A DNA stretch of 60,297 nucleotides, taken from assembly GCA_021201475.1 (NCBI GenBank), contig JAJQEV010000046.1, forward strand, positions 1 through 60,297, given 5' to 3'. The translations under genes and the position numbers were made by a program. Under the pieces are notes generated by a model. The model was not told the DNA's origin. It saw only the letters and a program-made list of their open reading frames with translations, and did not search any database. How positions within the stretch are numbered: the stretch's first letter is position 1; each line of letters starts with the position of its first letter. Below, in pieces: positions 2,944 to 45,088 of this stretch. Source of the stretch: Clostridiales bacterium (GTDB lineage: Bacteria > Bacillota > Clostridia > Oscillospirales > Oscillospiraceae).

Positions 2944-3147
2944 TTAAGGAACCTCTGAATAAATGGACGAGAGCGGATTGCGAGGAAATTTGCGTCAGAA
3001 AAAGGCGCAAAAGCGCAGGAATCCTGAGCCAGCTATGCTGGCGAAGCCACTTTGGACCGAAGTGATTTGTGCATCTTTTGCTCTGCTTATCCAATGGCAG
3101 AAATTTACCGTAAGACGCCGAAGTGCATTTGTTCAGAGGTTCCTTAA
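2944..3147. repeat. MITE-like element, copy A (204 bp)
   Basis: The 18-bp terminal inverted repeats GGAACCTCTGAATAAATG (2948-2965) and CATTTGTTCAGAGGTTCC (3126-3143) are flanked on both sides by TTAA. The first 70 bases are nearly identical to copy D at 44932-45088. The middle differs and is longer than in copies C and D. There is no credible ORF. Together with copies B, C and D this defines a short non-autonomous palindromic element. TTAA may be the target duplication or part of the inverted repeat. This copy lies upstream of the promoter of the neighbouring minus-strand gene. Confidence 0.8.
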
Positions 3148-3166
3148 GAATTGCCGCAAAAAACTG

Positions 3167-3207
3167 CGGAGCAGACAGCGCCTTCGGCGCTGCCTGCTCC
3201 GTTTTTT
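3167..3207 (-). terminator. Terminator for pyruvate:ferredoxin oxidoreductase
   Basis: A 16-bp stem with one mismatch (3167-3182 with 3186-3201) has T6 downstream on the plus strand and, three bases out, T-rich sequence on the minus strand. The nearest gene is the minus-strand oxidoreductase ending at 3251. The hairpin can act in both directions. Confidence 0.85.
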
Positions 3208-3250
3208 GGAAAGTTAACTTGTGCTTGCCGCTAGGCAGCTGCGGAGGGAC

Positions 3251-6200
3251 TTACACCTCGTACAGCTTGCCCAGACGGGTCAGATGCTCGTAGCGGGCCA
3301 GGGCGGTCTCCTCGCTCTTGGCGAACAGCTTCTCGGCGCGCTCCGGGAAGGAACGGGTCAGCGCGGAGTAACGGGCCTCGTTCAGCAGGAAGGACTTGTA
3401 ATCCTCCGCCTTGGGCGGCTTGGAGTCCAGCGTGAAGGGGTTCTTGCCCTGGGCCTTGTTGGTGGGATTGAAGCGGAACAGGTTCCAGTAGCCGCAGGCC
3501 ACGGCCTTCTTCATCTCGGCCTGGCAGTTGGTCATGCCGCCCTTGATGGAGTGCAGCTCGCAGGGGCTGTAGCCGATGATGAGGGACGGGCCGTGATAAG
3601 CCTCGGCCTCCACCATGGCCTTGATGCACTGAGCGGGGTTGGCGCCCATGGCGACCTGAGCCACATAGACGTAGCCGTACTGCATCTGGATCTCAGACAG
3701 GCTCTTCTTGGCGACCTCCTTACCGGCGGCAGCGAACTGGGCCACAGCGCCGATGTTGGTGGACTTGGAGGCCTGTCCGCCGGTGTTGGAGTAGATCTCG
3801 GTGTCAAAGACGAAGATGTTGATGTCCTCGCCGGTGGCCAGAACGTGATCCAGTCCGCCGTAGCCGATGTCATAGGCCCAGCCGTCGCCGCCGAACACCC
3901 AGCAGGACTTCTTGTTCAGGTAGTCCTTCTGCGCCAGGATGTCGTCAGCACCGGCCTTCTCCAGGGCGGCGATGAGGGTCTTGGTAGCGGCCTGGTTGGC
4001 GGCGGAGTCGTCGTAGGTGGCCAGCCACTCCTCGGCGGCGTCCTTCACGTCGGCGTTCTGCTCGGCCAAAGCCTCGACCTTGCCCTTCAGGGCGTCGCGG
4101 ATGGTCTTCTGGCCGTAGTACATACCCAGGCCATGCTCGGCGTTGTCCTCAAACAGGGAGTTGGCCCACGCGGGACCCTTGCCTTCCTTGTTGACGGTGT
4201 AGGGGGAGGTGGCGCCGGTGCCGCCCCAGATGGAGGAGCAGCCGGTGGCGTTGGAGATGAACATCCGGTCGCCAAACAGCTGAGTGATGACGCGGGCGTA
4301 GGTGCTCTCGGCGCAGCCAGCGCAGGAGCCGGAGAACTCAAGCAGCGGGGTCTTGAACTGGGAGCCCTTCACATCGGTGCCGGTCAGCTCTTCCTTGACG
4401 GAGACGCTGGCCACAGCGTAATCGAAGCAGGGCTGCTGATCCAGCTGGGACTCCTGGGGAACCATCTTCAGGCTGCCGGTGGGGCAGGCGCCGACGCAGA
4501 CGCCGCAGCCCATGCAGTCCAGCGGGGAGACGGCCAGGGCGAACTTGTACTTGCCCTTGCCCTTGCCGACCTTGAAATCGGCCATCTTCATGTTGGCGGG
4601 GGCGTTCTCCTGCTCGGCAGCGTCCAGCGCGTAGGCGCGGATGGTGGCATGGGGGCAGCAGAAGGTGCACTGGTTGCACTGCACGCACTTGTCAGGCGTC
4701 CACTCCACCACGTTGACGGCGACGCCGCGCTTCTCATAGGCGGATGCGCCGGAGGGGAAGGTGCCGTCGGCCATCGGCTCGAAGGCGGAGACGGGCAGGC
4801 TGTAGCCGTTCATCTGGTTGATGGGGTTCATGACCTCCTTGACCAGCTTCACGGTGTCGGGACGGCCGGTCAGCTCAGCAGGCTCGGCGTCGGGAGCGGG
4901 GTTGGCCCAGGACTCGGGAATCTCGCACTTGACGAAGGCGGTAGCACCGGCGTCGATGGCGTCCCAGTTCTTCTGGACAACGTCGCGGCCCTTCTTCAGG
5001 TAGGAGTGCTCGGCGGCGTCCTTCATGTACTTGATGGCGTCCTCAGCGGGCAGCACGTTGGCCAGGGCGAAGAAGGCGGACTGCAGCACGGTGTTGGTAC
5101 GCTTGCCCATGCCGACCTTCTCGGCCAGGTCAATGGCGTTGATCATGTACAGGTTGATCTTGTGGTCATACATATACTTCTTGGACTCGGCGGAGAGATG
5201 CTCCTCCAGCTCCTCAAAGGTCCACTGGCTGTTGACCAGGAAGGTGCCGCCGTCCTTGATGTCGTTGACGATCTTGAAGTGCTTGGTGATGTAAGCGGGG
5301 GTGTGGCAGGCCACGAAGTCCGCCTTGTTGATGTAGTAGGGGCTGCGGATGGGCTTGTCGCCAAAGCGCAGGTGGGAGACGGTCACGCCGCCGGTCTTCT
5401 TGGAGTCATACTGGAAGTACGCCTGAACATACTTGTCGGTATGGTCGCCGATGATTTTGATGGAGTTCTTGTTGGCGCCCACGGTGCCGTCGCCGCCCAG
5501 GCCCCAGAACTTGCACTCCACAGTGCCTTCCGCGGCGGTGTTGGGAGCGGGCTCTTCCGGCAGGGAGAGGTAGGTGACATCGTCGGTGATGCCGATGGTG
5601 AAGTGCTCCTTGGGTTCGTCCTTCTCCAGCTCCTTGTAAACGGCGAAGATGGAGGAGGGAGGCGTATCCTTGGAGCCGAGGCCGTAGCGGCCACCAATGA
5701 CGGTGATGTCGCTCTTTCCGGCCTTGGACAGGGCGGTGACCACGTCCAGATACAGCGGCTCGCCCAGAGCGCCGGGCTCCTTGGTGCGGTCCAGCACGGC
5801 GATTTTCTTGCAGGTGTCGGGGATGGCGGCCAGCAGACGCTCGGCGGAGAAGGGCCGATAGAGGTGGACGTTGATCATACCGACCTTCTCGCCCCGGGCG
5901 ACCTTGTAGTCCACGACCTCGCTCATCACGTCGTTGATGGAGCCGATGGCGATGATGATGTTCTCAGCGTCGGGCGCACCATAGTAGTTAAAGGCGGCGT
6001 AGTTGGTGCCCAGCTTCTCGTTAATCATGGCGAAATACTTGTCCACGATTTCGGGCAGGGCGTCATAGTACTTGTTGCAGGCCTCACGATGCTGGAAGAA
6101 GGTATCGTCATTCTCGTGGGAGCCGCGGACGATGCCGTGGTTGGGGTTCAGGGCATGGTTGCGGAACGCCTCGACCGCGTCCATATCCACCATGTCGGCC

Positions 6201-6775
6201 AAATCCTTATAGTCCCAGACGGACAGCTTCTGAATCTCATGGGAGGTACGGAAACCGTCGAAGAAGTTCAGGAAGGGCACGCGGCCTTCGATGGCGGCCA
6301 GGTGGGCCACAGGGGCCAGATCCATGACCTCCTGGGGGTTGGCCTCGGCCAGCATGGCGAAGCCGGTCTGACGGCAGGCCATAACGTCCTCGTGGTCGCC
6401 GAAGATGTTCAGGGCGTGGGTGGTCAGGGCGCGGGCGGCGACGTGCAGGACGCCGGGCAGCAGCTCGCCGGCGATCTTGTACATATTGGGGATCATCAGC
6501 AGCAGGCCCTGGGAAGCGGTGTAGGTGGTGGTCAGCGCGCCGGCGGCCAGGGAGCCGTGAACCGTGCCGGAGGCGCCAGCCTCGGACTGCATCTCAACGA
6601 CCTTCACAGGGTTGCCGAAGATATTCTTCTGGCCCTGGGCGGCCCATTGATCCACATAGTCCGCCATGGGGCTGGACGGCGTGATGGGGTAGATGCCCGC
6701 AACCTCGGTAAACGCATAGGATACCCATGCGGCCGCGTTGTTCGCATCCATGGATTTCTGTTTTCTTACTACCAT
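3251..6775 (-). CDS. nifJ: Pyruvate:ferredoxin (flavodoxin) oxidoreductase
   Basis: This 1174-residue single-chain enzyme oxidises pyruvate with CoA to acetyl-CoA and CO2, passing electrons to ferredoxin, a core step of clostridial fermentation. The N-terminal domain starts with VSYAFTEVAGIYPITPSSPM, typical of the family. The central ferredoxin domain has two 4Fe-4S motifs, CVQCNQCTFCCP and CMGCGVCVGACP. Further cluster-ligating cysteines lie in SGSCAGCAES. The C-terminal thiamine-diphosphate domain includes GDGWAYDIGYGG and YSNTGGQASKST. Length is as expected for the family. The start is ATG 6775 with AAGGAGG 12 bases upstream. The gene is monocistronic: a consensus-like promoter at 6924-6952, a MITE in the leader, and a terminator after the stop. 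The MITE hairpin in the 5' untranslated region is the unusual part. Confidence 0.97.
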   Translation of the reverse strand: MVVRKQKSMDANNAAAWVSYAFTEVAGIYPITPSSPMADYVDQWAAQGQKNIFGNPVKVVEMQSEAGASGTVHGSLAAGALTTTYTASQGLLLMIPNMYKIAGELLPGVLHVAARALTTHALNIFGDHEDVMACRQTGFAMLAEANPQEVMDLAPVAHLAAIEGRVPFLNFFDGFRTSHEIQKLSVWDYKDLADMVDMDAVEAFRNHALNPNHGIVRGSHENDDTFFQHREACNKYYDALPEIVDKYFAMINEKLGTNYAAFNYYGAPDAENIIIAIGSINDVMSEVVDYKVARGEKVGMINVHLYRPFSAERLLAAIPDTCKKIAVLDRTKEPGALGEPLYLDVVTALSKAGKSDITVIGGRYGLGSKDTPPSSIFAVYKELEKDEPKEHFTIGITDDVTYLSLPEEPAPNTAAEGTVECKFWGLGGDGTVGANKNSIKIIGDHTDKYVQAYFQYDSKKTGGVTVSHLRFGDKPIRSPYYINKADFVACHTPAYITKHFKIVNDIKDGGTFLVNSQWTFEELEEHLSAESKKYMYDHKINLYMINAIDLAEKVGMGKRTNTVLQSAFFALANVLPAEDAIKYMKDAAEHSYLKKGRDVVQKNWDAIDAGATAFVKCEIPESWANPAPDAEPAELTGRPDTVKLVKEVMNPINQMNGYSLPVSAFEPMADGTFPSGASAYEKRGVAVNVVEWTPDKCVQCNQCTFCCPHATIRAYALDAAEQENAPANMKMADFKVGKGKGKYKFALAVSPLDCMGCGVCVGACPTGSLKMVPQESQLDQQPCFDYAVASVSVKEELTGTDVKGSQFKTPLLEFSGSCAGCAESTYARVITQLFGDRMFISNATGCSSIWGGTGATSPYTVNKEGKGPAWANSLFEDNAEHGLGMYYGQKTIRDALKGKVEALAEQNADVKDAAEEWLATYDDSAANQAATKTLIAALEKAGADDILAQKDYLNKKSCWVFGGDGWAYDIGYGGLDHVLATGEDINIFVFDTEIYSNTGGQASKSTNIGAVAQFAAAGKEVAKKSLSEIQMQYGYVYVAQVAMGANPAQCIKAMVEAEAYHGPSLIIGYSPCELHSIKGGMTNCQAEMKKAVACGYWNLFRFNPTNKAQGKNPFTLDSKPPKAEDYKSFLLNEARYSALTRSFPERAEKLFAKSEETALARYEHLTRLGKLYEV

Positions 6776-6815
6776 GATAATTAGTTGCCTCCTTATATCC
6801 GTTAGAGTCCTCTGG

Positions 6816-6894
6816 GAACCCCTGAACAAATGAACCGAAGCGGATAGCGGGGAAACCCCGCAAAGCGCCGCAGCTGCATTTGTTCAGAGGTTCC
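6816..6894. repeat. MITE-like element, copy B (79 bp, short form)
   Basis: GGAACCCCTGAACAAATG (6816-6833) and CATTTGTTCAGAGGTTCC (6877-6894) are imperfect inverted repeats around a 43-base core containing a GGGGAAACCCC hairpin. The core is much shorter than in the other three copies. It lies wholly between the promoter at 6924-6952 and the start of the oxidoreductase gene, so it is transcribed as leader RNA. Confidence 0.8.
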
Positions 6895-6923
6895 CTCAGC
6901 AGGGGAAACCTTTTCACCCTCTT

Positions 6924-6952
6924 ATCATACCAGTTTCGGAGCCATTTGTAAA
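6924..6952 (-). promoter_or_regulatory. Promoter of pyruvate:ferredoxin oxidoreductase
   Basis: On the minus strand TTTACA (6952-6947), a 17-base spacer and TATGAT (6929-6924), with an extended -10 TGG. Transcription would start near 6917, giving a leader of about 140 bases that contains MITE copy B. Confidence 0.75.
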
Positions 6953-7061
6953 CCTTAATTTTTGCTTCCAGCCGGAAATTTGCAAGAATTTTTTTGAAAA
7001 CTATCCAGGAAAAGGGGCGTATTTGGTGATTTTCGACAGTTAATCGCCGCTAACTTTTTGA

Positions 7062-7184
7062 CGGGGCAGGACAACTGCACAGGAGTCCGGCCTCCTGCCC
7101 TGCAAAGTTTGGCCGGAAGCCGACCGCAGGGCAGGGTCTGGTGCAGGCCATGCGGTCGGAGGACAAATTTTGAGTGCTGCCCCG
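7062..7184. other. Structured inverted-repeat segment between divergent promoters
   Basis: An 8-bp closing stem, CGGGGCAG (7062-7069) with CTGCCCCG (7177-7184), encloses a CAGGAG/CTCCTG hairpin (7080-7097) and a 9-bp stem CCGACCGCA (7120-7128) with TGCGGTCGG (7151-7159). An alternative 10-bp pairing, 7094-7103 with 7126-7135, competes with both inner stems. No ORF is seen. It lies between the oxidoreductase promoter and the promoter at 7192-7220 and would not be in either transcript. It may be a small RNA, a decayed repeat element or an operator region. Confidence 0.3.
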
Positions 7185-7191
7185 CCGCCCC

Positions 7192-7220
7192 TTTACAAAT
7201 CGTATTCCCTATGCTAAAAT
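7192..7220 (+). promoter_or_regulatory. Promoter of the XRE regulator operon
   Basis: TTTACA (7192-7197) and TAAAAT (7215-7220) are 17 bases apart, with an extended -10 TGC. They lie 30 bases upstream of the regulator start codon. Confidence 0.75.
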
Positions 7221-7250
7221 AATACCAACTGTTAAAAAGAGGTGTCCCCT

Positions 7251-7958
7251 ATGCGCGCAGAACCTTGCAGCGATTTTCCCCGCACCCTGTCCGCTCTGCG
7301 GAAGGAGAAGGGGGTCAGCCAGCGCACCGCCGCCGCCGCCCTGGGCATCAGCCAGGCCCTCCTCTCCCACTATGAGAAGGGCGTCCGGGAGCCGGGGCTG
7401 GCTTTTGTGGTGCGGGCCTGCGACTATTATCACGTCTCCGCCGACTACCTGCTGGGCCGCACCCTGGACCGGGAAGGCTCCATCGTGGACGCAGAGGAGC
7501 TGTACGACGTCAGCCTCCACAAGGACAACACCCTGCGGGGCAGCGTTATGGCCCAGCTGAACAAGAAGCTCATCGTCAACTCCGTCACTGTCCTGTACGG
7601 CCTGCTGGGGCGGCTGGGCTGCCGGGAGCTGATTCTGGCGGTGTCCAATGCCTTCGGCTGCCAAATCTACGCCCTGTTCCGGGCGCTGCGCTCCATTGAC
7701 AGGGCCAACTCCGACAGCCTGTTCACCCTGCCGGAGAGCCACGGTCAGGACGGCGCGGCCACCGTCACCACCCTCCAGGCCATGGCGGAGAGCAGCGCCC
7801 TGGTGGAGGAGCTGCGGGAGCAGGACTTGTCCTTCCCCATCAACGATGAGAGCCTGAAGCGGGAGTATCCCGCCATGTGGCAGTCGCTGTATCAGGTGCT
7901 GCACCGCACCTCCGGCGTCATCACCCGCCGCCTGTCCAGCCACACCTACGATGAATAA
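7251..7958 (+). CDS. XRE-family helix-turn-helix transcriptional regulator
   Basis: This is a 235-residue protein. The N-terminal 65 residues form a Cro/C1-type helix-turn-helix: LSALRKEKGVSQRTAAAALG followed by ISQALLSHYEKGVREP and a DYYHVSADYLLGR segment typical of this family. The remaining 170 residues match no domain I recognise and are probably a ligand or oligomerisation domain. ATG 7251 is preferred over GTG 7242 because the AAAGAGG ribosome binding site overlaps the GTG. It is the first gene of an operon with a NUDIX hydrolase (14-base gap) and a GNAT acetyltransferase. Its target is unknown; it may regulate its own operon. Confidence 0.85.
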   Translation: MRAEPCSDFPRTLSALRKEKGVSQRTAAAALGISQALLSHYEKGVREPGLAFVVRACDYYHVSADYLLGRTLDREGSIVDAEELYDVSLHKDNTLRGSVMAQLNKKLIVNSVTVLYGLLGRLGCRELILAVSNAFGCQIYALFRALRSIDRANSDSLFTLPESHGQDGAATVTTLQAMAESSALVEELREQDLSFPINDESLKREYPAMWQSLYQVLHRTSGVITRRLSSHTYDE

Positions 7959-7972
7959 AGGAGCGTTGTTCC

Positions 7973-8521
7973 ATGGATATGAAAGAGACCTTTTTGCGCC
8001 GCACCCAAATCTTTGACGGCCACGTCGTCCACCTGTTTGTGGACGATGTCCGCCTGCCCAACGGCGGCACCGCCCAGCGGGAAATCGTCACCCACGCCGG
8101 AGGGGCCTGCGTAGCCGCGCTGACGGCCCGGAACGAACTGCTGCTGGTGCGCCAGTTCCGCTACGCCTTTGGGGAGGAACTGCTGGAAATTCCCGCCGGG
8201 AAGCTGGAGCGTGGGGAAGACCCCTTCGAGGCCATGAAGCGGGAGCAGCGGGAAGAGACGGGCACCCGCTCTGACCGCTACGTCTCCCTGGGCGTTACCT
8301 ACCCCACCGTGGGCTATGACGATGAGAAGATTTACATCTGGGCCTGCCGGGTGACGGAGCCTGCCGGGGACCAGGACCTGGACCCGGACGAGTTCCTGGA
8401 GGTGGAGAAGCTGGACCTGTGGGAGGCAGAGCGGATGGTGATGGCCGACCAGATCAGGGACGGAAAGACCCAAATCGCCATCCTGAAAACCGCTGCCCTG
8501 GTGCGGGCGGGGCAGCTGTGA
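7973..8521 (+). CDS. NUDIX hydrolase, ADP-ribose pyrophosphatase type
   Basis: This 182-residue protein contains a NUDIX box in GKLERGEDPFEAMKREQREE followed by TGT, matching G-x5-E-x7-R-E-x2-E-E-x-G. Preceding RQFRYAFGEELLEIPAGK is characteristic of the ADP-ribose/nucleotide-sugar pyrophosphatase branch. The enzyme would hydrolyse ADP-ribose or related nucleoside diphosphate derivatives to AMP and a sugar phosphate in the cytoplasm. A ribosome binding site, AAGGAG, precedes ATG 7973. Its last four bases overlap the GTG start of the next gene, indicating translational coupling. Confidence 0.92.
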   Translation: MDMKETFLRRTQIFDGHVVHLFVDDVRLPNGGTAQREIVTHAGGACVAALTARNELLLVRQFRYAFGEELLEIPAGKLERGEDPFEAMKREQREETGTRSDRYVSLGVTYPTVGYDDEKIYIWACRVTEPAGDQDLDPDEFLEVEKLDLWEAERMVMADQIRDGKTQIAILKTAALVRAGQL

Positions 8522-9386: not shown

Positions 9387-10376
9387 ATGGGGGTATATCG
9401 TATGAAAGCAAAGTATATCTATCTGACAGTAGAGCAGCAGGAATATCTGAAAGACATCGTGAGGAAAGGGGAACATAACGCTCACGAAATCATCCGTGCA
9501 AGAGTGCTTCTGATGTTAGACCGGACGGGAAAATCCGACCATGTCAGATACAAAAGAGTTGCAGAGGCTCTCGAAATTTCTGTACAGGCCGTGTATAATA
9601 TGCGGGATGATTACTTTGAAAAACAGGATATTCTCGCCTATCTTACCCGGAAAAAGAGAGAAACTCCGCCGGTACCGCCGAAGGTCACAGGTGAATTGGA
9701 AGCTCAGATTATCGCGCTGGCTTGCAGCGAACCTCCTGAGGGTCACGCCAGGTGGACTTTACGGCTGCTCAGTTCCAGAGCGGTAGAACTGGGCTATATA
9801 GACAGCATCTCCTACGGAACGGTTAGAAATGTCTTAAAAAAACGGAATATAAGCCTCATTTGAGGAAAATGTGGTGTATTCCATCCAAGCAAAATGCAGA
9901 GTTCGCTGCCCGCATGGAAGATGTGCTGGAGGTATATGCCAGACCTTATGATGCGCAGCGTCCTGTTGTGTGCATGGATGAAAAGCCGTTTCAACTGTTA
10001 GATGAGCGGCTGGAACCGATTCCCATGAGTGAAACAAATCATACTGAGAAATATGACTGTGAATATGAAAGAAAAGGTTCCTGTTCCATCTTTATGTTCA
10101 CGGAACCGCTGGGCGGTTGGCGGAATACTGTTGCATTGCCTTCCAGGGCGGCGGTTGATTGGGCAAACCAAATCAAGTGGCTGGTGGACGAACAATATCC
10201 GGATGTTGAGAAAATCGTTCTGGTTATGGATAATCTCAACACTCACACAGCAGCATCTTTGTACAAAACCTTTCCTCCGGAGGAAGCGTTCCGCATTATG
10301 CAAAAGCTGGAGATTCACTGCGTCTGACGCCAGAATTAAGTTCAAACACCTTTATCTAGAAATAAAGTTTTAGATT
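9333..10376 (+). mobile_element. IS630-family insertion element, internally deleted
   Basis: A transposase remnant is flanked by imperfect terminal inverted repeats beginning AAAACT on the left (about 9333) and ending AGTTTT on the right (about 10371). The arms are only about 70% alike, so the borders are approximate. The element lies after the GNAT operon and before a strong terminator at 10424, as if it had inserted between that operon and its terminator. Base composition is lower in GC than the neighbours, consistent with transfer. Confidence 0.6.
9387..10373 (+). pseudogene. IS630-family transposase, two frames and internal deletion
   Basis: The first frame (9387-9863) encodes the N-terminal DNA-binding half, 158 residues. 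The second (-1) frame continues as TEYKPHLRKMWCIPSKQNAE and carries the first catalytic aspartate in VVCMDEKP and the second in VLVMDNLNTH. The two frames meet at A7 (9836-9842), read as A-AAA-AAA in the first frame, a classic -1 slippery site, so fusion by programmed frameshifting is plausible. The second frame stops at 10327 after KLEIHCV. A third frame then resumes with SDARIKFKHLYLEIKF, which resembles the family C-terminus. The segment expected between them, with the catalytic glutamate (usually near WLNIAEIE), is missing. The gene is therefore inactive. Confidence 0.8.
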
Positions 10377-29526: not shown

Positions 29527-29555
29527 TTGCGTTCCGCCGGTTTTCCCTATATAAT
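29527..29555 (+). promoter_or_regulatory. Promoter P2 of the GH25 lysozyme gene, abutting a MITE
   Basis: TTGCGT (29527-29532), 17 bases, TATAAT (29550-29555). The transcript would begin near 29562, at the first base of the MITE inverted repeat. Confidence 0.6.
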
Positions 29556-29558
29556 GAA

Positions 29559-29723
29559 TTAAGGAACCTCTGAACAAATGCAACTGCGGTGCCTTACGGC
29601 AAATTTCCGCCATAAATGCGTTGTAAAATCTTGAAATCCGTCAGGATTCCTGCGCTTTTGCGCCTTTTATGACGCAAATTTCCTCGCAATTCGCTCTTGT
29701 TCATTTATTCAGAGGTCCCTTAA
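29559..29723. repeat. MITE-like element, copy C (165 bp, inverted orientation)
   Basis: TTAA-flanked inverted repeats GGAACCTCTGAACAAATG (29563-29580) and CATTTATTCAGAGGTCCC (29702-29719). The core is the reverse complement of that in copy D. It forms most of the leader of the lysozyme gene that begins at 29761. Confidence 0.85.
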
Positions 29724-29760: not shown

Positions 29761-32484
29761 ATGAATCGATGGAAACAAACCCTGGCCGGATTGCTGGCCG
29801 TAGCTATCCTGTGCGGCAGCCTGCCCTGTCAGACGCTGGCTGCGGATGTGGATGCCGCCGACCAATCCACAACGGAGGAGGACGCCGTTTCAGCATCTGC
29901 AGCGGAAGCGGAAGAAAGCGGCGCGGCTGCCTCGGAATCCGAAACGGTATCGGAGGACGCCAGTGCAATTGAGGCGGAACTCTCTGAGGAGGCAGAAGCC
30001 GACCAGGAAACAGAGAGTGCTGACGAAGCTGTGACGGTTAGTGAAGAAGATGCGGAGGCTTCCGATGATGCGGACGCCGAGGCCGAGGTCGAGGAAGAGC
30101 TGGTCTATGACCTGGACGGCTTGCTGGTATCCGACAACGGCGAGGAGGATATGAACAGCTGGCGCTATGAGGACGGCGAGCTGATTGAAGCGGAATCAGA
30201 GGACAGCAACGACGGCATTATGATCGTCTCCTCCGGTGTCACCGCCGACGACTCCGTTGCCTTTGGCATAGATGTGTCCAAGTGGCAGGGAGACATCGAC
30301 TGGGACAGCGCCCGGGGCAGCATTTCCTTTGCTATCATCCGCTGCGGCTATGGCAGCAACCTGACCTCCAACGACGACAGTTACTTTGAACAAAACGTGG
30401 CGGCCTGCGAGGAGCTGGGCATTCCCTACGGCGTTTACCTCTATTCCTATGCCACAACCACCACCGAGGCAAAGAGCGAGGCAAACCACGTCCTACGGCT
30501 GCTGGATGGGCACACGCCCAGCCTGCCGGTCTATCTGGACCTGGAGGACTCCTCCATCACTTCCGCCTGCAGCAATTCACAGATTCTGGCCATGGCCAAG
30601 GTCTTTTGCAATGCCATCGAGGATGCAGGCTATGAGGCGGGAGTCTACGCCAATAAGAACTGGTGGACGAACTACCTGACCAGTTCTACTTATGATCAAT
30701 GGGACCGCTGGGTGGCGCAATATAACACGTCCTGCACCTATACAGGCGGGGACTTCTCCTATTGGCAGTACAGCAGCACCGGCTCTGTCAGCGGCATTTC
30801 CGGTAATGTGGACTGCAACTATGCCATGAGCGGCTCACCCTTCTACAGTTCCTCTACGCCGAAGATTGCAAACGCAGACCTGCCCTCCGGCAGCATTGCG
30901 GCAACTGCTTACGCCATTTCCGGCATCGTGTCCAGCAGCAAAAAAATTACCAAAATCACGGTCAGCGTGCTGGATTCCAGCGGAACGACAGTGAAGACCG
31001 CAACGGTAAATCCCAACGGAAAGAGCTATGAACTGGCGGCCATGAACTTCTCTGTATCTACGGCGGGGCTGACTGCCGGAAAGACCTATACTTGTCAAGT
31101 CAAGGCCACCACCTCCAGCGGCACCAGCACTGTGACGGAGACAACCTTCAAGGTTGTAGCACCGCAGCTGTTCAGCGTGAGCAATGAGGCCACCGGTGTG
31201 AAGGTGGCTTGGAATGCCTATTCTGGTGCAGTGAAGTACCGGGTGTTCCGCAAGATTTCCGGCGGCTCCTGGGAGAAGGTGGGTGACACCACCTCCACCA
31301 GTTACACGGATACCACTGCTGTCAGCGGCACCACCTATACCTACACCGTCCGGTGCATCAATTCCGCCGGAACCGGCTACACCAGCGCCTATAATTCCGG
31401 CAAATCTATCACCTATGTTGATACGCCGGTGATCTCCAGTCTGTCCAACACCACCGATGGCGTGACGGTGGCCTGGGGAGCAGTCACTGGGGCGGAGAAG
31501 TACCGGGTCTATCGCAAGACCTCCAGCACAAGCTGGGTCGCCGTTGTCAGCACTACCGCCACCAGCTACACGGACACCACTGCCGTCAGCGGCACCGCCT
31601 ACACTTACACTGTCCGCTGTATCAGCTCAGATGGGACGACCAAGACCAGCGGCTATAACTCTGGCAAAAGCATCACCTATCTTGCTGCCCCAACCATTTC
31701 CAGTCTGGAGGGTACCTCCTCCGGCGTGAAGGTGACGTGGGGGGCAGTGAACGGCGCAACCAAGTATCGCGTGTTCCGCAAGGTCTCCGGCGGCTCCTGG
31801 GAGAAGGTGGGTGACACCACCTCCACCAGTTACACGGATACCACTGCTGTCAGCGGCACCACCTATACCTACACCGTCCGGTGCATCAATTCCGCCGGAA
31901 CCGGCTACACCAGCGCCTATAATTCCGGCAAATCTATCACCTATGTTGATACGCCGGTGATCTCCAGTCTGTCCAACACCACCGATGGCGTGACGGTGGC
32001 CTGGGGAGCAGTCACTGGGGCGGAGAAGTACCGGGTCTATCGCAAGACCTCCAGCACAAGCTGGGTCGCCGTTGTCAGCACTACCGCCACCAGCTACACG
32101 GACACCACTGCCGTCAGCGGCACCGCCTACACTTACACTGTCCGCTGTATCAGCTCAGATGGGGCGACTAAAACCAGCGGCTACACCTCCGGAAAGAGTA
32201 TTACCTATATCGCCGCCCCCACCATTTCCAGTCTGGAGGGTACCTCCTCCGGCGTGAAGGTGACCTGGGGAGCAGTGAACGGTGCGGCCAAGTATCGCGT
32301 GTTCCGCAAGGTCTCCGGCGGCTCCTGGCAGCAGGTAGGGGACACTACCGCTACCAGTTACACAGACACCACCGCTGTCAGCGGCACCACCTACACCTAT
32401 ACCGTCCGCTGCATCAATTCCGCCGGAACCGGCTACACCAGCGCTTATCGCGCTGGCAAAACCATCGCCTACACCCTGAATTGA
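29761..32484 (+). CDS. Secreted GH25 lysozyme with fibronectin type III repeats
   Basis: This is a 907-residue protein. A signal peptide (RWKQTLAGLLAVAILCGSLP, cleavage near residue 28) is followed by an acidic Ser/Glu/Ala segment to about residue 160, similar in style to the wall protein upstream. Residues about 164-361 are a GH25 muramidase: FGIDVSKWQGDIDW, then the catalytic PVYLDLED, and FSYWQYSSTG. Next comes one Ig-like domain, then five 88-residue fibronectin type III-like repeats to the end. It would cut peptidoglycan between MurNAc and GlcNAc outside the cell, either in wall remodelling or against competitors. The last repeats contain a recent 528-bp duplication. ATG 29761 has AAAGGAG upstream. 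No LPxTG or membrane anchor is seen. Confidence 0.93.
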   Translation: MNRWKQTLAGLLAVAILCGSLPCQTLAADVDAADQSTTEEDAVSASAAEAEESGAAASESETVSEDASAIEAELSEEAEADQETESADEAVTVSEEDAEASDDADAEAEVEEELVYDLDGLLVSDNGEEDMNSWRYEDGELIEAESEDSNDGIMIVSSGVTADDSVAFGIDVSKWQGDIDWDSARGSISFAIIRCGYGSNLTSNDDSYFEQNVAACEELGIPYGVYLYSYATTTTEAKSEANHVLRLLDGHTPSLPVYLDLEDSSITSACSNSQILAMAKVFCNAIEDAGYEAGVYANKNWWTNYLTSSTYDQWDRWVAQYNTSCTYTGGDFSYWQYSSTGSVSGISGNVDCNYAMSGSPFYSSSTPKIANADLPSGSIAATAYAISGIVSSSKKITKITVSVLDSSGTTVKTATVNPNGKSYELAAMNFSVSTAGLTAGKTYTCQVKATTSSGTSTVTETTFKVVAPQLFSVSNEATGVKVAWNAYSGAVKYRVFRKISGGSWEKVGDTTSTSYTDTTAVSGTTYTYTVRCINSAGTGYTSAYNSGKSITYVDTPVISSLSNTTDGVTVAWGAVTGAEKYRVYRKTSSTSWVAVVSTTATSYTDTTAVSGTAYTYTVRCISSDGTTKTSGYNSGKSITYLAAPTISSLEGTSSGVKVTWGAVNGATKYRVFRKVSGGSWEKVGDTTSTSYTDTTAVSGTTYTYTVRCINSAGTGYTSAYNSGKSITYVDTPVISSLSNTTDGVTVAWGAVTGAEKYRVYRKTSSTSWVAVVSTTATSYTDTTAVSGTAYTYTVRCISSDGATKTSGYTSGKSITYIAAPTISSLEGTSSGVKVTWGAVNGAAKYRVFRKVSGGSWQQVGDTTATSYTDTTAVSGTTYTYTVRCINSAGTGYTSAYRAGKTIAYTLN
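31264..32319 (+). repeat. 528-bp near-perfect tandem duplication of two Fn3 repeats
   Basis: The block beginning GGCTCCTGGGAGAAGGTGGG occurs at 31264 and, similarly, at 31792, a period of 528 bases (176 codons, two Fn3 domains). The copies are almost identical until about 32160, where scattered changes begin. The pattern indicates recent copy-number change by recombination. Confidence 0.85.
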
Positions 32485-38609: not shown

Positions 38610-38707
38610 ACTCGTTCCTCCCAAAGTGAAGTGCGTCCTTTGCAGACTGTGTTAGTCTGTGCGCAGGCTGGAGGAATAAACCTGACAAAGCTTTCCTCAG
38701 GAGCGGA

Positions 38708-39106: not shown

Positions 39107-39138
39107 CTTGCTCCTCCCATGATATGTATATGATGCGG

Positions 39139-39939
39139 CTACTCCAGCCAGTGCCGGAGTGCCTGCTGGCACAGCGTTCCGTCAAGCCCTTCCGACTTGA
39201 GCCATGCCGCCTTCAACCAAATTTGATGGACATCCTTTCGCTTTATCCGAATCAAAAATCCATTCCCGTCCGGCGCATAGCGCACCTCATAGGAATCACA
39301 GAACTGCGGGTCGAACCTGGCATTGTACGCGCTGATGCCAAAAGACCAGTTTCCCAGTGCGCCGGTCAGAACCAGGGACTGGTCGGTTGTGTATTTATGG
39401 GGAAATCCCCGCCACTGTGCTTCGTTCTCGCTGTCACTCTGAAAGTAAAGTTCGTACCAACTGCCAGCATCTAGTCGTTCCGTCGGCAGGCAGATGTCAA
39501 ACACCGTCTTTGTGGAAACGCGGCGTCCGGCATTGTCTCGATAGGTTACGCCATATCCTGCGGATTCGACGTTAAAAGGCTGCACTTCTTTGCCCATCCA
39601 GTTTGTTATATGAATGAAACCCACCGGAAGGTCAAGGCCAGAAAGCCGTTCTCCGGTGAAACACTCCGGCATCTCGAACCATTTGTCCGACCTCATACGA
39701 GCGTTGAGCAGAGAAAGCAGTTCTTCATCACTGCATCCTGCATCCAAATATTCCGATGTGATACTTCGTTTGCAGCTGATGTCCTGGTAGTATTCCAGCT
39801 TGATTTGGGGCGCTCCATCGCGATTTTCGATGAAAAGCGGCTTCAAGACCGGCCTGAGCCGATCTCTGTTCGTGTATACTTCAAAGTTCCAGCAAAGGTA
39901 GTTCTCATACAATAGAGTATGTAATCTTCCAGGTGTCAT
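39139..39939 (-). CDS. Unknown protein in the J-domain/HIRAN operon
   Basis: This 266-residue soluble protein belongs to no family I recognise. It is rich in aromatic residues and beta-prone segments (IKLEYYQDISCKRSITSEYL, FGISAYNARFDPQFCDSYEV) and ends in a basic helix, KRKDVHQIWLKAAWLKSEG. There is no signal peptide, membrane helix or obvious nucleotide-binding motif. The start is nine bases after the upstream gene, so it is translated from the same mRNA. Its conserved context, if it proves conserved, would be the main clue to function. Confidence 0.7.
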   Translation of the reverse strand: MTPGRLHTLLYENYLCWNFEVYTNRDRLRPVLKPLFIENRDGAPQIKLEYYQDISCKRSITSEYLDAGCSDEELLSLLNARMRSDKWFEMPECFTGERLSGLDLPVGFIHITNWMGKEVQPFNVESAGYGVTYRDNAGRRVSTKTVFDICLPTERLDAGSWYELYFQSDSENEAQWRGFPHKYTTDQSLVLTGALGNWSFGISAYNARFDPQFCDSYEVRYAPDGNGFLIRIKRKDVHQIWLKAAWLKSEGLDGTLCQQALRHWLE

Positions 39940-39948
39940 GCCGTTCTC

Positions 39949-40752
39949 CTATGGCAGATAGTCCTTTATCCGCGCCTTATACTCCTCCGCCTGCGCCTGA
40001 TACCGTTCACACAGGGTCTCCAGCTCTTCCTTCCGCTGGAGCGCCTTGGCCTCATCGTCCAGAAACTCTTTCAGGGTATAAGGATAGGTCGTCTGTATCT
40101 CCGCCGTCCTTGCCCGAACCTGCTGGAGCTTTTGGACGAGCTGTTCCTTTTCCTTTTGATAGGAGAGCAGGGAAGCGTCCTCCTCGTGCAAATCGTCCTG
40201 CCTGACCAGTTCAAAAATAGCCTGCATCAGCTCCAGATTGCCATCCTGATAGGCTGTGACGGCTCTGGAAAACAGCCCCGCCTTCGCATCGGAGAACTCC
40301 GGGTGCAGGTCTGGGTGCAGGGCTTTGACGATTTTCCGATACATGGATTTCAGGGAGGCTGCATCCTCCTCCGTCAGCGTTTCCGCCTGGCTGCGGTCTA
40401 AAGCCTCGTTCATGCTCTGAATCAGCGCGTCAAGCTGCCGCTGATAGTCCTGGAACTCCTGGTCGAGAATCTTCTCCAACGCCTGGATGTCTACCGGCTC
40501 CTGCCGGTTCCGCTTCATAATCACAAGCTCCAGCTTGCGTTTATACCTCAGATATTGGCACTCCGCTTCGTAGGCTGCATATTCCAGCCCGCCGAACCGC
40601 AGCAGATAGGCCGCTTCGATATTTTTACACTGTTGCAGCCGCAAATCATCCTGCTCCAAAATGGCGGCGGACAGTTCTTCCCGCAGCTGTTGAATCTCCG
40701 CTTTCAGCGCATCATACTGCGGAAACGGTATCAATTTCTTTTCATCACACAT
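39949..40752 (-). CDS. Coiled-coil protein with a J-domain-like HPD segment
   Basis: This protein of about 267 residues has long helical segments at both ends (ALKAEIQQLREELSAAILEQ near the start; EKEQLVQKLQQVRARTAEIQ near the end). In the middle, SMYRKIVKALHPDLHPEFSD followed by AVTAYQDGNLELMQAIFEL has the HPD loop and helix III/IV pattern of a J domain, suggesting that it recruits DnaK. The start is uncertain: ATG 40752 has AGGG nine bases upstream, but in-frame ATGs at 40770 and 40797 are possible. It is the first gene of the operon with the unknown protein and the HIRAN protein. Confidence 0.7.
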   Translation of the reverse strand: MCDEKKLIPFPQYDALKAEIQQLREELSAAILEQDDLRLQQCKNIEAAYLLRFGGLEYAAYEAECQYLRYKRKLELVIMKRNRQEPVDIQALEKILDQEFQDYQRQLDALIQSMNEALDRSQAETLTEEDAASLKSMYRKIVKALHPDLHPEFSDAKAGLFSRAVTAYQDGNLELMQAIFELVRQDDLHEEDASLLSYQKEKEQLVQKLQQVRARTAEIQTTYPYTLKEFLDDEAKALQRKEELETLCERYQAQAEEYKARIKDYLP

Positions 40753-40939
40753 AACTCTGAACCCTGTCATTCTTCCATACATGCTGTCAAAGCCCACAGC
40801 GCTCTGTCGGAACGGAATCTTGCGAAAAACGAGCGTCCGCCAAAGCCGATGCGCCCCCTGTCTTATCTACCAGTGTATAACAAATCCTGTCATTTATCAA
40901 CATTTAGTTTTACTTTTGTACATTTATACAGCGCCTCCC

Positions 40940-40968
40940 TTGCAATTTATCCAAAAAGATGGTATGAT
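40940..40968 (+). promoter_or_regulatory. Promoter of the Fur-family regulator gene
   Basis: TTGCAA (40940-40945), 17 bases, TATGAT (40963-40968), with an extended -10 TGG. It lies 40 bases upstream of the start codon. Confidence 0.75.
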
Positions 40969-40972
40969 ACCA
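40960..40972 (+). promoter_or_regulatory. Candidate operator palindrome over the -10 element
   Basis: TGGTATGATACCA is a perfect 6-1-6 palindrome covering the -10 hexamer. Its position would block RNA polymerase, and autoregulation by the Fur-family product of the next gene is the simplest reading. It does not match the classical Fur or PerR box. Confidence 0.45.
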
Positions 40973-41008
40973 CTAAGACAGTACAAGTAGGAGCGTGTAA
41001 GGGAACCC

Positions 41009-41479
41009 ATGAATGCCAGGCGCTATTCCAGACAGCGGGAGTTGATTTACGAATACCTGTGCGGGACGACGGAGCATCCCACGGCGGAGATGATTTACGC
41101 CGGCTTGAAGCCGCAGTCGCCCCACCTGGGCCTTGGCACGGTCTACCGCAACCTGAGCCTCCTCTGTGAGGACGGGCGGGTGCGGCGGCTGCCCTTCCCG
41201 GTGGAGCGGTATGACGGGAACCTGTCGGAGCACGCCCACTTCTGCTGTCAGCAGTGCGGCAAGGTGTCCGACCTGTTTTTAAACGAAACCGCAGTCAGTG
41301 AAACGGAGGAAGCGGTGGCCCGGCACTATGGCCACCAGGTACATCACCACGAGCTGATTTATTACGGTGTCTGCGCCCAGTGCCTCAGCGCTCAGGCCGA
41401 CACCTCGGAAGGGCAGGTGAAGCAGCATGAAAATCAGTTATCAGCCCAAGGGCGTTTGCTCCCGCCTGATGAACATTGA
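41009..41479 (+). CDS. Fur-family metal- or peroxide-responsive repressor
   Basis: This is a 156-residue protein. The winged helix includes RQRELIYEYL, HPTAEMIYAGL and the recognition helix LGLGTVYRNLSLL. The dimerisation domain has two CxxC pairs (C80/C83 in CQQC and C122/C125 in CAQC) for structural zinc, and histidine-rich HAHF and HHHE segments for the regulatory metal. RYDGN before SEHAHF resembles PerR more than Fur, but I do not assign it. AAGGGAA precedes ATG 41009. Its 3' end overlaps the TSCPD gene by 53 bases. Confidence 0.9.
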   Translation: MNARRYSRQRELIYEYLCGTTEHPTAEMIYAGLKPQSPHLGLGTVYRNLSLLCEDGRVRRLPFPVERYDGNLSEHAHFCCQQCGKVSDLFLNETAVSETEEAVARHYGHQVHHHELIYYGVCAQCLSAQADTSEGQVKQHENQLSAQGRLLPPDEH

Positions 41480-41669
41480 GGTGGAGGATGGCGTCATCCA
41501 AAATCTGGAGGTCATCGGCGGCTGCAACGGCAACCTGAAGGGCATTTCCGCCCTGGTGAAGGGGATGAAGGTGGAGGACGCTATCTCCCGGATGGAAGGC
41601 ATCCACTGTGGCATGAAGTCTACCTCCTGCCCCGACCAGATCGCCCAGGCGCTGAAGCAGGCGCTGTAA
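41427..41669 (+). CDS. TSCPD domain protein (TIGR03905 type)
   Basis: This 80-residue protein has the TIGR03905 pattern: KISYQPKGVCSRLMNIEVED, GGCNGNLKGISALVKGM and HCGMKSTSCPDQIAQAL. It is named after its TSCPD motif. Conserved cysteines suggest metal or cluster binding; its function is not established. It starts inside the regulator gene in another frame, so the two are translationally linked. A bidirectional terminator follows. Confidence 0.88.
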   Translation: MKISYQPKGVCSRLMNIEVEDGVIQNLEVIGGCNGNLKGISALVKGMKVEDAISRMEGIHCGMKSTSCPDQIAQALKQAL

Positions 41670-41689
41670 TGCGTGGACACACAAAACGC

Positions 41690-41731
41690 AACGCTCCCCT
41701 TATGAGATTTCTCATAAGGGGAGCGTTTTTT
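41690..41731. terminator. Bidirectional terminator between TSCPD and copA genes
   Basis: A 17-bp perfect stem (41690-41706 with 41711-41727) with loop ATTT has T6 on the plus side and A4 on the other, and lies between two convergent genes. Confidence 0.92.
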
Positions 41732-41743
41732 GCGGCGATATGC

Positions 41744-41953
41744 TTACTGCACGCCCTTGACCTCATAGCCCGCGTCGGTGACGGCGGCAGTCAACACCTC
41801 ATCCGCCACTGGGGCAGCCAGGGTGACGGTGGCGGTCTTGGCCTCCAGGTCGACTGCGGCGGAGGTCACGCCTGCCACGGCGGACAGGGCCTTCTCCACA
41901 TTGGCCTTGCAGTGGGCGCACATCATGCCCTCTACGGTCAGTACCTTTGTCAT
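41744..41953 (-). CDS. copZ: Possible internally initiated CopZ copper chaperone
   Basis: Within the 3' end of copA and in the same frame, GAGGTG lies six bases before ATG 41953. Initiation there would give a 69-residue protein, [20 protein letters not shown] and onward, the same size as free CopZ chaperones. It would deliver Cu(I) to CopA or CsoR. The frame could equally be read only as the last domain of CopA. A second in-frame ATG lies eight codons upstream. Direct evidence for independent translation is lacking. Confidence 0.4.
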
Positions 41954-44581
41954 TGTGTTCACCTCGTTTTCGTTCATATCTGCTTCACTCCTGGGAGTGG
42001 GGACAGCACATTCGCCCGGCTCATAGCCGGCCTCCGTCACGGCGGCGGCCAGAACCTCGTCCGCTACGGCCGCGTTCAGGGTGATGGTGACGCTGTGGGC
42101 CTCCAGGTCGGCTTTGGCGGAGCGCACCTCCGGAAGGGCGGTCAGCGCCTCCTCCACCCGGCGGGTGCAGTGCTGGCACATCATGCCGTTGACGGCAAGC
42201 ACACGGGTCTCCCCGTCATTCTGGGGCGCGGACAGGGGACAGGCCGGGGCTTCCTCCGGTGCTGTGGGGGAGGAGGTCGGAACGGCGGGGGCGCTGTGCT
42301 TCGGCTTGAAGAACCGCAGCCGCAGGGCGTTGGACGCCACGGAGACGGAGCTAAGGCTCATAGCCGCCGCCCCAAAGATGGGGCTGAGCTGCCAGCCCAG
42401 AAGGGGGTAAAACACACCGGCGGCCAGGGGGATACCCACGCAGTTGTAGCAGAAGGCCCAGAACAGGTCCTGCTTGATGTTGCGGATGGTGGCCCGGCTC
42501 AACTCCATGGCGGTGACGGCGTCAAACAGGCTGCTCTTCATCAGCACTACGTCGGCGGATTCCAGGGCCACATCGGTGCCCGCGCCGATGGCGATGCCCA
42601 CGTCCGCCCGGGTCAGGGCGGGTGCGTCGTTGATGCCGTCCCCCACCATAGCCACCTTGCGGCCCTCCTGCTGGAGGGCGGAGATTTTCGCTTCCTTCTC
42701 AGTGGGCAGCACTCCGGCGATGAAGGAGGAGATGCCCAGGGTTTTCGCCACGGCGGCGGCGGTGCGCTGGTTGTCGCCAGTGAGCATGACCACCTCCACC
42801 CCCAGGTCACGGAAGGCGTCCACGGCGGCCTTGCTGTCGCTGCGGGGGACATCCGCCACGGCGATGATGCCCAGAAGCTGGCCGTCGTCGGCGAAGTACA
42901 GCGGAGTCTTTCCGGCCTCTGCCAGGGCGTCCCCCGCTCCGGCGGGAACGGCAACCCCCTCCGCCTCCATCAGGGCCTGATTGCCCGCAAGATACTGTTT
43001 CCCCTCCAGGGTGGCCCGCAGGCCCCGGCCCGGCTGGGCGGAGAAGTCCTCCACCGGCGCGGTGGCAACGCCCCGCTCTTTGGCGGCCCGGACGATGGCC
43101 TCTGCCAGGGGATGCTCCGAGGGGGCCTCCAGGGAGGCGGCCAGCCGGAGCAGCTCCTCCTGGGAAACGCCCGCTGCCGGAACCAGGTCTGTGACCACCG
43201 GCCTGCCCTCAGTCAGGGTGCCGGTCTTATCCACCACCACGGTGTTGACGTTGTGGAGGGATTCCAGGGCCTCGGCGGACTTGAACAGCACGCCCAGCTC
43301 CGCCCCTTTGCCGGTGCCAACCATGATGGCCACCGGGGTGGCCAGCCCCAGGGCGCAGGGGCAGGAAATCACCAGCACCGCCACGGCGGAGGTCAGGGCG
43401 CTGGAGACACTGCCGGACACCAGCATCCACACCACAAAGGTGACCAGGGAGATGCACAACACCACCGGCACGAACACCCCCGCCACCTTGTCGGCCAGCT
43501 TGGCGATGGGAGCCTTGCTGGCGGAGGCGTCCTCCACCAGATGAATGATTTGGGACAGGGTGGTGTCCTCCCCCACCCGGGTGGCCCGGAAGGTGAAGGA
43601 GCCGTTTTTGTTGATGGTGGCGGCGGAGACGCTGTCGCCAATCACCTTCTCCACGGGGATGGATTCCCCGGTCAGGGCGCTCTCGTCCACGGCGGAGGCG
43701 CCGGTCAGCACCACGCCATCTACCGGGATGGCCTCGCCGGGGCGCACCAGCAGGATGTCCCCCGGCTGCACCTCCTCCACCGGGACGGTGGATTCCGCCC
43801 CGTCCTCCAGACGGGTGGCGGTCTTGGGGGCCAAGTCCATCAGCCGCTCCATGGCCTGGCTGGTCTTGCCCTTGCTGCGGGTCTCCAGGAACTTGCCCAC
43901 CGTCACCAGGGTCAGAATCATGCCCACGCTCTCCAGATAGAGGTGGTTCATGTGGTACTCCTCCGCCAGCTCCAGATCACCGTGCCCCAGCGCCCAGGCG
44001 ACGACGAACATGGCGTAAAGGGAATACAGCAGGGAGGCGGCAGCCCCCAGGGCCACCAGCGAGTCCATGTTGGGGGCGCGGCGGAACAGGGCAGGGAAGC
44101 CCACCTTAAAATACTTATCGTTGACGTACAGAATGGGCAGCACCAGCACGAACTGGAGCAGGGCGTAGGTCATGCTGTTCTCCACCCCGGTGAGGAAGGC
44201 GGGCAGCGGCACGCCGAACATGTGTCCCATGCAGACGTAAAACAGGGGAACCAGGAAGCAGACGGAGATGATGAGCCGGGTCTTCATCCACCGCAGCTCC
44301 TTGTTCATCTCCTCCTTCCTGGCCTGTGCCTCCGCCTGGGCGGAGGAGACGGCCTTGCCCTTCTGCTCCTGCCCGGCTACGGTGGCACGATAGCCCGCCT
44401 TCTCCACGGCGGTGCAGATGTCCTGGGGGGAGAGGGCGTCCGGGTCGTAGGTCACTACCATCGTCCCGGCCAGCAGGTTCACCGCCGCGTCCTCCACGCC
44501 CTCCAGGCCGCCTGCCGCCTTCTCCACATGAGCCTGGCAGGCGGCGCAGCTCATGCCGAATACATTGAACTTTTGCTTCAT
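41744..44581 (-). CDS. copA: Copper-exporting P1B-type ATPase with C-terminal metal-binding domains
   Basis: This is a 945-residue protein. An N-terminal heavy-metal domain has GMSCAAC. Then come eight membrane helices with the transport motif CPC, phosphorylation motif DKTGTLTEG (near residue 450), SEHPLAE and [10 protein letters not shown] (near residue 650). Unusually, two more metal-binding domains follow the last helices, with GMMCQHC and GMMCAHC. Typical CopA has metal-binding domains only at the N-terminus and is about 750-800 residues long. The last domain has the length of a CopZ chaperone and has its own ribosome binding site (see the entry at 41744-41953). It pumps Cu(I) out of the cytoplasm. 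It follows csoR by 27 bases; GAAAGGAAC precedes ATG 44581. Confidence 0.95.
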
Positions 44582-44608
44582 AATAGTTCCTTTCTAGTCT
44601 GTGCTGCC

Positions 44609-44908
44609 CTATTTCAGCAGCTTTTGCAGGGTCTTTACCAGCTCCTCCACCTTCTCATCGTTCCCGGCGCGGATGTCCTCCGCCACACAGGTGCGGATGT
44701 GGGTGGACAGCAGCTCCTTGGTGAAGCTGTTCAGGGCGGCGGTGGTGGCGCTGACCTGGGTCAGGATGTCCACGCAGTAGCAGTCCTCATCCACCATCCG
44801 TTTCAGCCCCCGCACCTGGCCCTCGATGCGGCTCAGGCGGTTGATGAGATCCCGATGCTCGGCCTCGGAGCGCTCTTTTTTGCGGGTGCAGCAGCACTGC
44901 TCCTCCAT
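44609..44908 (-). CDS. csoR: CsoR-family copper-sensing repressor
   Basis: This is a 99-residue protein. HRDLINRLSRIEGQVRGLKR is the DUF156/CsoR signature. The Cu(I) ligands are the cysteine in DEDCYCVDIL and the H and C of STHIRTCV. An N-terminal CCC motif is an addition. In this family Cu(I) binding releases the repressor from a GC-rich palindrome, and two such palindromes lie at the promoter (45093-45147). GAAAGGAG precedes ATG 44908. The leader between promoter and gene contains MITE copy D. It is co-transcribed with copA. Confidence 0.95.
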   Translation of the reverse strand: MEEQCCCTRKKERSEAEHRDLINRLSRIEGQVRGLKRMVDEDCYCVDILTQVSATTAALNSFTKELLSTHIRTCVAEDIRAGNDEKVEELVKTLQKLLK

Positions 44909-44931
44909 GTGGGTCAACTCCTTTCTGTCAA

Positions 44932-45088
44932 GGGACCTCTGAATAAATGGACAAGAGCGGATTGCGAGGAAATTTGCGTCAGAAAAAGGCGCAAAGGCGC
45001 AGGAATCCTGACGGATTTCAAGACTTTGCAACGCATTTATGGCGGAAATTTACTGCAAGACGCCGAAGTGCATTTGTTCAGAGGTTCC
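44932..45088. repeat. MITE-like element, copy D (157 bp)
   Basis: GGGACCTCTGAATAAATG (44932-44949) and CATTTGTTCAGAGGTTCC (45071-45088). The core matches copy C in reverse complement and the first half of copy A. No TTAA duplication is evident on the left. It lies in the csoR leader, between the operator at 45093-45109 and the start codon. Confidence 0.85.

Follow-up and report, generated by a model that had tools for sequence, protein, structure and literature searches.

The 60,297-nt stretch of DNA analysed here (the window; contig JAJQEV010000046.1 of the Clostridiales bacterium assembly GCA_021201475.1) contains four palindromic repeats with 18-bp inverted ends, which we interpret, with a probability of roughly two in three, as non-autonomous IS5-type elements that have a conserved hairpin with a strand-specific fold at their centre and whose copies in gene leaders are tolerated by-products. 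Inverted ends, YTAR target duplications, copy number and lineage-specific insertions show that the elements are of the kind moved by IS5-type transposases, and their strand-specific core recurs across the order on different ends. The comparison of divergent copies suggests furthermore that selection acts on the core strand in its folded, single-stranded state, which most likely is an RNA. An earlier note on this DNA had described the repeats as resembling miniature inverted-repeat transposable elements (MITEs) and as forming the 5' leaders of three unrelated genes. All four palindromes are present at the places given there, and the designation is apt for short repeats with 18-bp ends, target duplications, many mobile copies and no transposase gene. 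The bounds 2944-3147 and 29559-29723 proposed for two of them each take in the flanking TTAA, which is the target duplication. Three of the copies indeed lie between a promoter and a start codon; the fourth, at 2948, is outside the leaders.

The ends are defined by the pattern GGAACCTCTGAAYAAATG, also designated GGAACCTCTGAA, which at three or fewer mismatches matches the window nine times versus 0.07 expected. Eight of these matches are the ends of the four copies; the ninth, at 47690, has three mismatches. Since the pattern also yields 49+54 matches genome-wide versus 0 for a reversed control pattern, chance is ruled out. Draft contigs frequently terminate within copies. Copy 1 (2948..3143, plus strand, 196 bp) is flanked by TTAA on both sides and retains the 5' half of the core, with an insert module in place of the 3' half. 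It is located between a terminator-like hairpin of the PFOR gene and a promoter-like site on the minus strand (2916-2888), and G028 (L147) has a copy at the equivalent site. Copy 2 (6815..6894, 80 bp) lacks the core and occupies the 5' leader of the PFOR gene. Copy 3 (29563..29719, minus strand, 157 bp), again with TTAA on both flanks, and copy 4 (44932..45088, plus strand, 157 bp) both carry the core in antisense orientation to the adjacent gene, which is the GH25 lysozyme gene for copy 3 (core on the minus strand) and csoR for copy 4 (core on the plus strand). The target duplication is not intact at copies 2 (6815) and 4 (44932). The z-scores of the RNA folds of the four copies range from -5.6 to -8.9.

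The own genome provided 37 end pairs, of which three weak ones were dropped. The remaining 34 are all situated outside called genes, which account for 242,613 of the 306,453 bases of the own loci; genes were called with a codon-model finder built for this analysis, and the promoter scores, calculated in the flanks, are likewise home-made. Based on another pairing rule, a larger set of 102 elements was compiled from the own genome and six relatives, whose loci were taken mainly from long matches and hence do not comprise every copy. The elements are 72-419 bp long with a mode of 157 bp (63/102). Their flanks are identical at 4/4 bases in 42 and at 3/4 bases in 24 of the 102 cases, and the site reads YTAR, which is the target duplicated by elements of the IS5 subgroup. 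YTAR duplication and GG-type ends assign the elements of this genus to the IS5 family. They are present in 23 of 31 genomes of the genus, and element-free sites in the orthologous csoR and GH25 leaders document their mobility. After exclusion of six elements with shared flanks, 83 of the remaining 96 are located between two called genes, ten at edges and three inside called genes.

Copies of 196-419 bp hold inserted modules that are palindromic by eye. Three such modules (about 113, 40 and 110 bp) occur in varied combinations within the hairpin (L015, L019, L049, L011 and others), as if hairpins had been added onto hairpins. Several insertions are common to pairs of species with a flank identity of 88-96% (L113/L129, L142/L175, L158/L165, L027/L120), and some of the insertions are therefore old. 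In a collection of 174 elements from the own-genus loci and L187-L306, 27 junctions are found within 6 nt of a called stop codon. Ten of these junctions have a 4/4 duplication, and in nine of the ten the stop codon falls inside the duplicated target or overlaps it. Insertion at stops would be harmless because YTAR contains TAA or TAG.

The same interior was found beneath other ends in relatives. A motif scan with one genome per species revealed at least 120 stretches, and the 80 titles listed comprise Oscillospiraceae, Ruminococcaceae, other Clostridia, unclassified bacterial assemblies and Saccharospirillum salsuginis. Among 125 motif matches, 21 lacked testable ends and 78 exhibited ends pairing at 12/16 bases or more. 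Clustering of 75 copies of suitable length together with the window copy resulted in 33 divergent copies. The covariance model R1, which covers the 96 central positions, was built from the exact-motif set; it matches copy 4 at 44963..45057 on the plus strand with 79 bits, this copy being itself part of the model, and copy 3 at 29595..29688 on the minus strand with 75 bits. Searches spanning more than 40 genomes were run with stricter filters, and their counts are lower bounds. Within the order, which is probably Oscillospirales, R1 matches were obtained in at least 48 of 147 genomes, corresponding to 29 of 86 genera, and in at least four of 299 genomes across the phylum, one of them the own genome and one from the same family. 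One genome contains 40 matches, and the cultured carrier Flintibacter muris DSM 110149 contains seven.

The single copy of Saccharospirillum salsuginis, which we take to be a gammaproteobacterium, is 156 bp long (L196:7302-7457), has 16/16 matching ends (TGGGCCAAGCGGTAAA) and is flanked by CTAG on both sides. It reflects either horizontal transfer or deep ancestry; plasmid and phage records contained nothing that resembles it at an E-value of 1e-5. The core is also found at the extreme end (10050-10078) of one viral contig (L307, IMGVR_UViG_3300029305_006423). In four further loci (L361, L362, L367, L376), the main match is accompanied at a distance of about 118 bp by a second, weaker core match (22-32 bits) that points the opposite way, an arrangement somewhat reminiscent of paired repetitive extragenic palindromic (REP) units in bacterial interspersed mosaic elements. 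Rfam had no match in the window at the gathering score, and the elements of six further loci were without any at E-values up to 1. Titles and abstract openings listed in searches of the literature outside subscription papers contained no description of the element or its core.

The fold of the core is supported by covariation. In the 33 divergent copies, 89.7% of the cells pair and double changes are found in 20 of 29 pairs; the covariation score of 0.439 compares with 0.149 after shuffling, none of 500 shuffles reached it, and slid controls attained at most 0.136. The 69 model-found copies show double changes in 13 of 14 core pairs and a score of 0.614 versus 0.152, a value that leans towards the model because the alignment was fitted to its structure. 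The two strands of the element differ in stability. The core strand is more stable than its complement in all 33 divergent copies (mean -80.1 versus -57.3 kcal/mol), still in 33/33 if the core is removed, and in 32/33 after control for dinucleotide composition. The same applies to every one of the 72 own-genus copies that measure 150-165 bp, to 31 of 32 model-found copies that lack the exact motif and, over a fixed span, to 64 of 69 model-found copies. Even the ends are asymmetric. At base 13, the 5' end has T and the 3' end has C in 75 of 92 own-genus copies, a combination that pairs as U-G on the core strand, whereas the reverse, which would be C-A, occurs in 0/92; the others are 15 T/T and two C/C. 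The core accordingly combines the covariation and the strand-specific stability of a structured RNA, and this one-sidedness points to selection on RNA (or single-stranded DNA) rather than on a DNA palindrome. A transposase that needs asymmetric ends might account for base 13, yet scarcely for the arms.

One and the same core is associated with different ends even within single genomes. G360 harbors three end classes, of which GGCGATACCGCATAAA and GGAAGNACTGNTTAAA come with 4/4 duplications and GAACCTGTATGCACAA with none, and three classes, one with a 4/4 duplication, were also detected among the sampled copies of G358. Within these genomes, one class shares 6-10 of 16 bases with another, while shuffled ends share 6.5 on average with a 95th percentile of 9. 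For the other end types, 4/4 duplications were observed in 28 of 78 motif-found and 11 of 44 model-found copies versus 18 of 180 random places, using an end-finder that favours duplications and accepts ends at 13 of 180 random places. Assignment to the IS5 family by target duplication is thus less clear for end types outside this genus.

Candidate partners were sought among transposases of family PF01609, which we presume to be of the IS5 type. In G020 (L099), the C-terminal fragment of such a transposase is followed by an end identical to the first 14 bases of the element, and another degraded PF01609 fragment (L394/L401) is accompanied by 16/16 ends of a second type. Automatic end-finding around transposases returned mostly chance repeats, and only the ends of L394/L401 were used from it. 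We also considered the core as a piece of an insertion sequence (IS). This was rejected: R1 matches occur in two of 55 PF01609 loci, which overlap and show a single place with a separate element, and the core is not part of any IS in the 55 loci. Not all authors require that the interior of a MITE derive from an IS by deletion. As far as tested, the ISs and the elements thus appear to share their ends and not their interior, and the simplest account would be that a conserved hairpin repeatedly acquires ends from, or adapts its ends to, resident transposases.

The three leaders belong to genes identified with Pfam. The PFOR gene for pyruvate:ferredoxin oxidoreductase (3251..6775, minus strand) is preceded by the promoter TTTACA/17/TATGAT (6924..6952, minus strand), which recurs in other species of the genus and whose -10 box is 29 nt away from the element. 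The GH25 lysozyme gene (29761..32484, plus strand) has the promoter TTGCGT/17/TATAAT (29527..29555, plus strand), conserved in the element-free ortholog of G017; here the distance is 7 nt, and the element begins with the eighth nucleotide past the -10 box. The csoR gene of the metal-sensitive repressor family (CsoR family in Pfam; 44609..44908, minus strand) is headed by TTGACA/17/TATACT (45126..45154, minus strand), which is conserved in related csoR leaders, with 37 nt between -10 box and element. A CsoR-like box at 45131-45147 overlaps the spacer of this promoter. A second CsoR-like box (ATACCCCTTGGGGGTAT, 45093..45109) is found in most related leaders compared and is absent from L427, and the element is inserted immediately beyond it. 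The three promoters are probably genuine, because those of PFOR and csoR recur in relatives and that of GH25 in the single readable ortholog.

The insertions in these leaders differ in age. The csoR element is missing in all 14 nearest orthologous leaders (the best 15 of 30 CsoR loci by similarity, own included), among them that of G017 with an identical CsoR protein. The two nearest csoR relatives (L414, L416) have TATATAAGGA before the ribosome site, and the same letters make up the left flank plus the element start in the window; the motif might represent an excision footprint. The GH25 element is not present in the single readable orthologous leader (L472, from G017). Among 25 PFOR leaders, the element resides at one place in four species, own included; it is missing from five alignable leaders (L448-L451, L459), the 15 more diverged ones exhibit no such end pair by eye, and L467 is incomplete. 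The leader hairpin of the four species folds with -36.6 (G004) to -53.0 kcal/mol, and the arms pair worst in G004. Judging from these alignments, the PFOR copy is old, the only one of the three leader insertions that is.

The earlier note had reasoned that either insertion targets promoter-proximal DNA or the hairpins are kept for mRNA stability or regulation. Promoters facing an element peak at a distance of 3-12 nt (12 of 35 within 225 nt, looser threshold). In 192 flanks, ten -10 boxes end 0-15 nt from the element versus 0.5 after column shuffling under the stricter threshold, and 12 versus 2.2 under the looser one. A control within the same intergenic regions gave 11 of 45 versus 3.6-3.9 expected at allowed positions (z 3.9). 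Such an excess is what would be expected if the transposase complex preferred the melted or supercoiled DNA at transcription starts. However, restriction of the control to YTAR sites reduces it to 8 of 38 versus 6.1 (z 1.2), or to 7 of 36 versus 4.1 under the stricter threshold (z 2.0), and survivorship in short leaders would give a similar picture. The wider interval of 0-40 nt is not clearly enriched (13 versus 8.6, z 1.7; YTAR sites 9 versus 8.9). The clustering at transcription starts is real, and because the YTAR restriction cuts 11 versus 3.9 to 8 versus 6.1, it largely follows target-site availability. Promoter-proximal insertion hence stands for the 0-15 nt next to the -10 box, mostly as a matter of YTAR placement and not for the wider interval; additional targeting is possible, and we regard a true preference of the transposase for transcription starts as rather unlikely.

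Retention of the hairpins by the host genes for mRNA stability or control could likewise account for the enrichment directly past the -10 boxes and for the PFOR hairpin being kept in four species. The orientation of the core is, however, unbiased near start codons (15 sense, 15 antisense; 22/26 farther off). In the order set, 9 sense and 19 antisense cores are located within 75 nt of a stop and 15/11 within 75 nt of a start, and the pooled co-directional cases (33 sense, 48 antisense) do not differ significantly (p 0.12). Neither a consistent orientation nor, apart from PFOR, conservation among orthologs was found; the csoR copy has no counterpart in the 14 nearest orthologous leaders and the GH25 copy none in the single readable one, and the PFOR copy, which is common to four species, lacks the core. 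Leader regulation was therefore rejected as the main role of the elements, and cis-regulatory retention is a very improbable explanation. The elements also show that presence in a leader does not by itself make a repeat regulatory.

The elements could also be ordinary IS5-family MITEs with an inherited interior, ends that drifted together with their transposases and a hairpin that matters as DNA only. In size, ends, target duplications and number of copies they conform to the standard, and the end types A and B, which are identical at 13 of 18 bases, would permit stepwise drift for some of the classes. This explanation is nevertheless unlikely, since the core is absent from the 55 transposase loci as part of an IS, a DNA palindrome is not expected to be strand-asymmetric, and conservation is highest in the centre (mean identity 0.71 versus 0.61 for the ends and 0.54 for shuffled ends, the centre value being inflated because part of the set was picked by a central motif). 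If the hairpin acted as single-stranded DNA of which one strand is recognized, as is the case for REP and attC hairpins, the strand-specific fold with its conserved unpaired bases would be accounted for by analogy, and G-T pairs are tolerated in single-stranded DNA as well. The 4-bp duplications and inverted ends point to double-strand transposition instead, and we consider a DNA hairpin of this kind quite unlikely.

Several observations weigh against our interpretation of a strand-specific hairpin, selected most likely as RNA, on exchangeable ends. The strand asymmetry also fits a single-stranded DNA hairpin or unlike left and right ends required by the transposase, and five of 69 model-found copies are not more stable on the core strand. 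Related copies are not independent trials, and the invariance within the motif is partly built in because the set was picked by the exact motif and R1 was built from this set. G357 and G359, two of the five genomes checked, have a single end class among their sampled copies. The only PF01609 gene of the own genome, PF01609 being the sole family searched, lacks such ends. Co-directional cases of the order set lean towards antisense (12 sense, 23 antisense), and the retention of the PFOR copy at one place in four species makes a use by the host possible.

We nonetheless favor non-autonomous IS5-type elements with a conserved hairpin as outlined at the outset. According to this scenario, the ends would have been exchanged or re-evolved to fit resident transposases. 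The data support the view that the leader positions result from insertion at YTAR sites, from the removal of coding-sequence insertions by selection and from the frequent presence of a YTAR site in the AT-rich DNA directly past a -10 box, and that a hairpin, once in a leader, is tolerated in either orientation. The core would probably serve the element and not the neighbouring gene, for example, and speculatively, as a stable or protein-bound transcript that aids mobilization or persistence. A broader proposal, which we put forward tentatively and at somewhat less than even odds, is a superfamily of mobile structured RNAs, namely a strand-specific hairpin of about 100 nt, conserved in an order of gut Clostridia and present in one gammaproteobacterium, with interchangeable ends for different IS5-like transposases and an RNA that may be needed for mobilization or persistence. 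Bacterial MITEs are generally regarded as decay products of insertion sequences whose interiors carry no meaning. A one-strand covarying core that is distributed across an order, with several kinds of ends per genome, would indicate that some MITE interiors are under selection, and it raises the direct question of whether a small RNA is involved in bacterial DNA transposition. The R1 model can be used for annotating such copies in gut genomes.

The expectation of the earlier note that mobile repeats usually avoid promoter-proximal positions does not hold in general: Correia elements of Neisseria are found immediately upstream of genes, and one is located just downstream of the mtrCDE promoter, as stated in the excerpts of PMC10969869. 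They resemble the present elements as palindromic mobile repeats next to genes, in one case just past a promoter, and differ in their ends and their host; an order-wide core is not described in these excerpts (PMC10969869). Correia elements also carry promoters. QMITE elements of Coxiella burnetii combine a core with inverted ends and are predicted to yield a long hairpin transcript (excerpts of PMC5896051 and PMC10969869), and the title of the former source links them to small RNA evolution (PMC5896051). Neither an order-wide core nor multiple end classes are described for them in the excerpted parts of these two papers (PMC5896051, PMC10969869). The MITEs of the IS5 family (IS5 subgroup) share the GG...CC inverted ends, the 4-bp YTAR duplication and the small, gene-free, intergenic character; unlike in these MITEs, one interior is found here under several end types and with a strand-specific fold. 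The BOX and RUP repeats of pneumococcus are modular and mobile, are predicted to move in trans and form RNA stem-loops. To our knowledge, they are confined to one species group and do not present one core on several different ends. The closest parallel in architecture may be that of the eukaryotic CORE-SINEs (short interspersed nuclear elements), in which a conserved central core is retained while ends or tails are swapped to match the helper elements. CORE-SINEs are RNA retroposons with tails of long interspersed nuclear elements, whereas the elements described here are DNA elements with inverted ends; if the proposed superfamily is real, it would represent the bacterial DNA-transposon counterpart of the CORE-SINEs.

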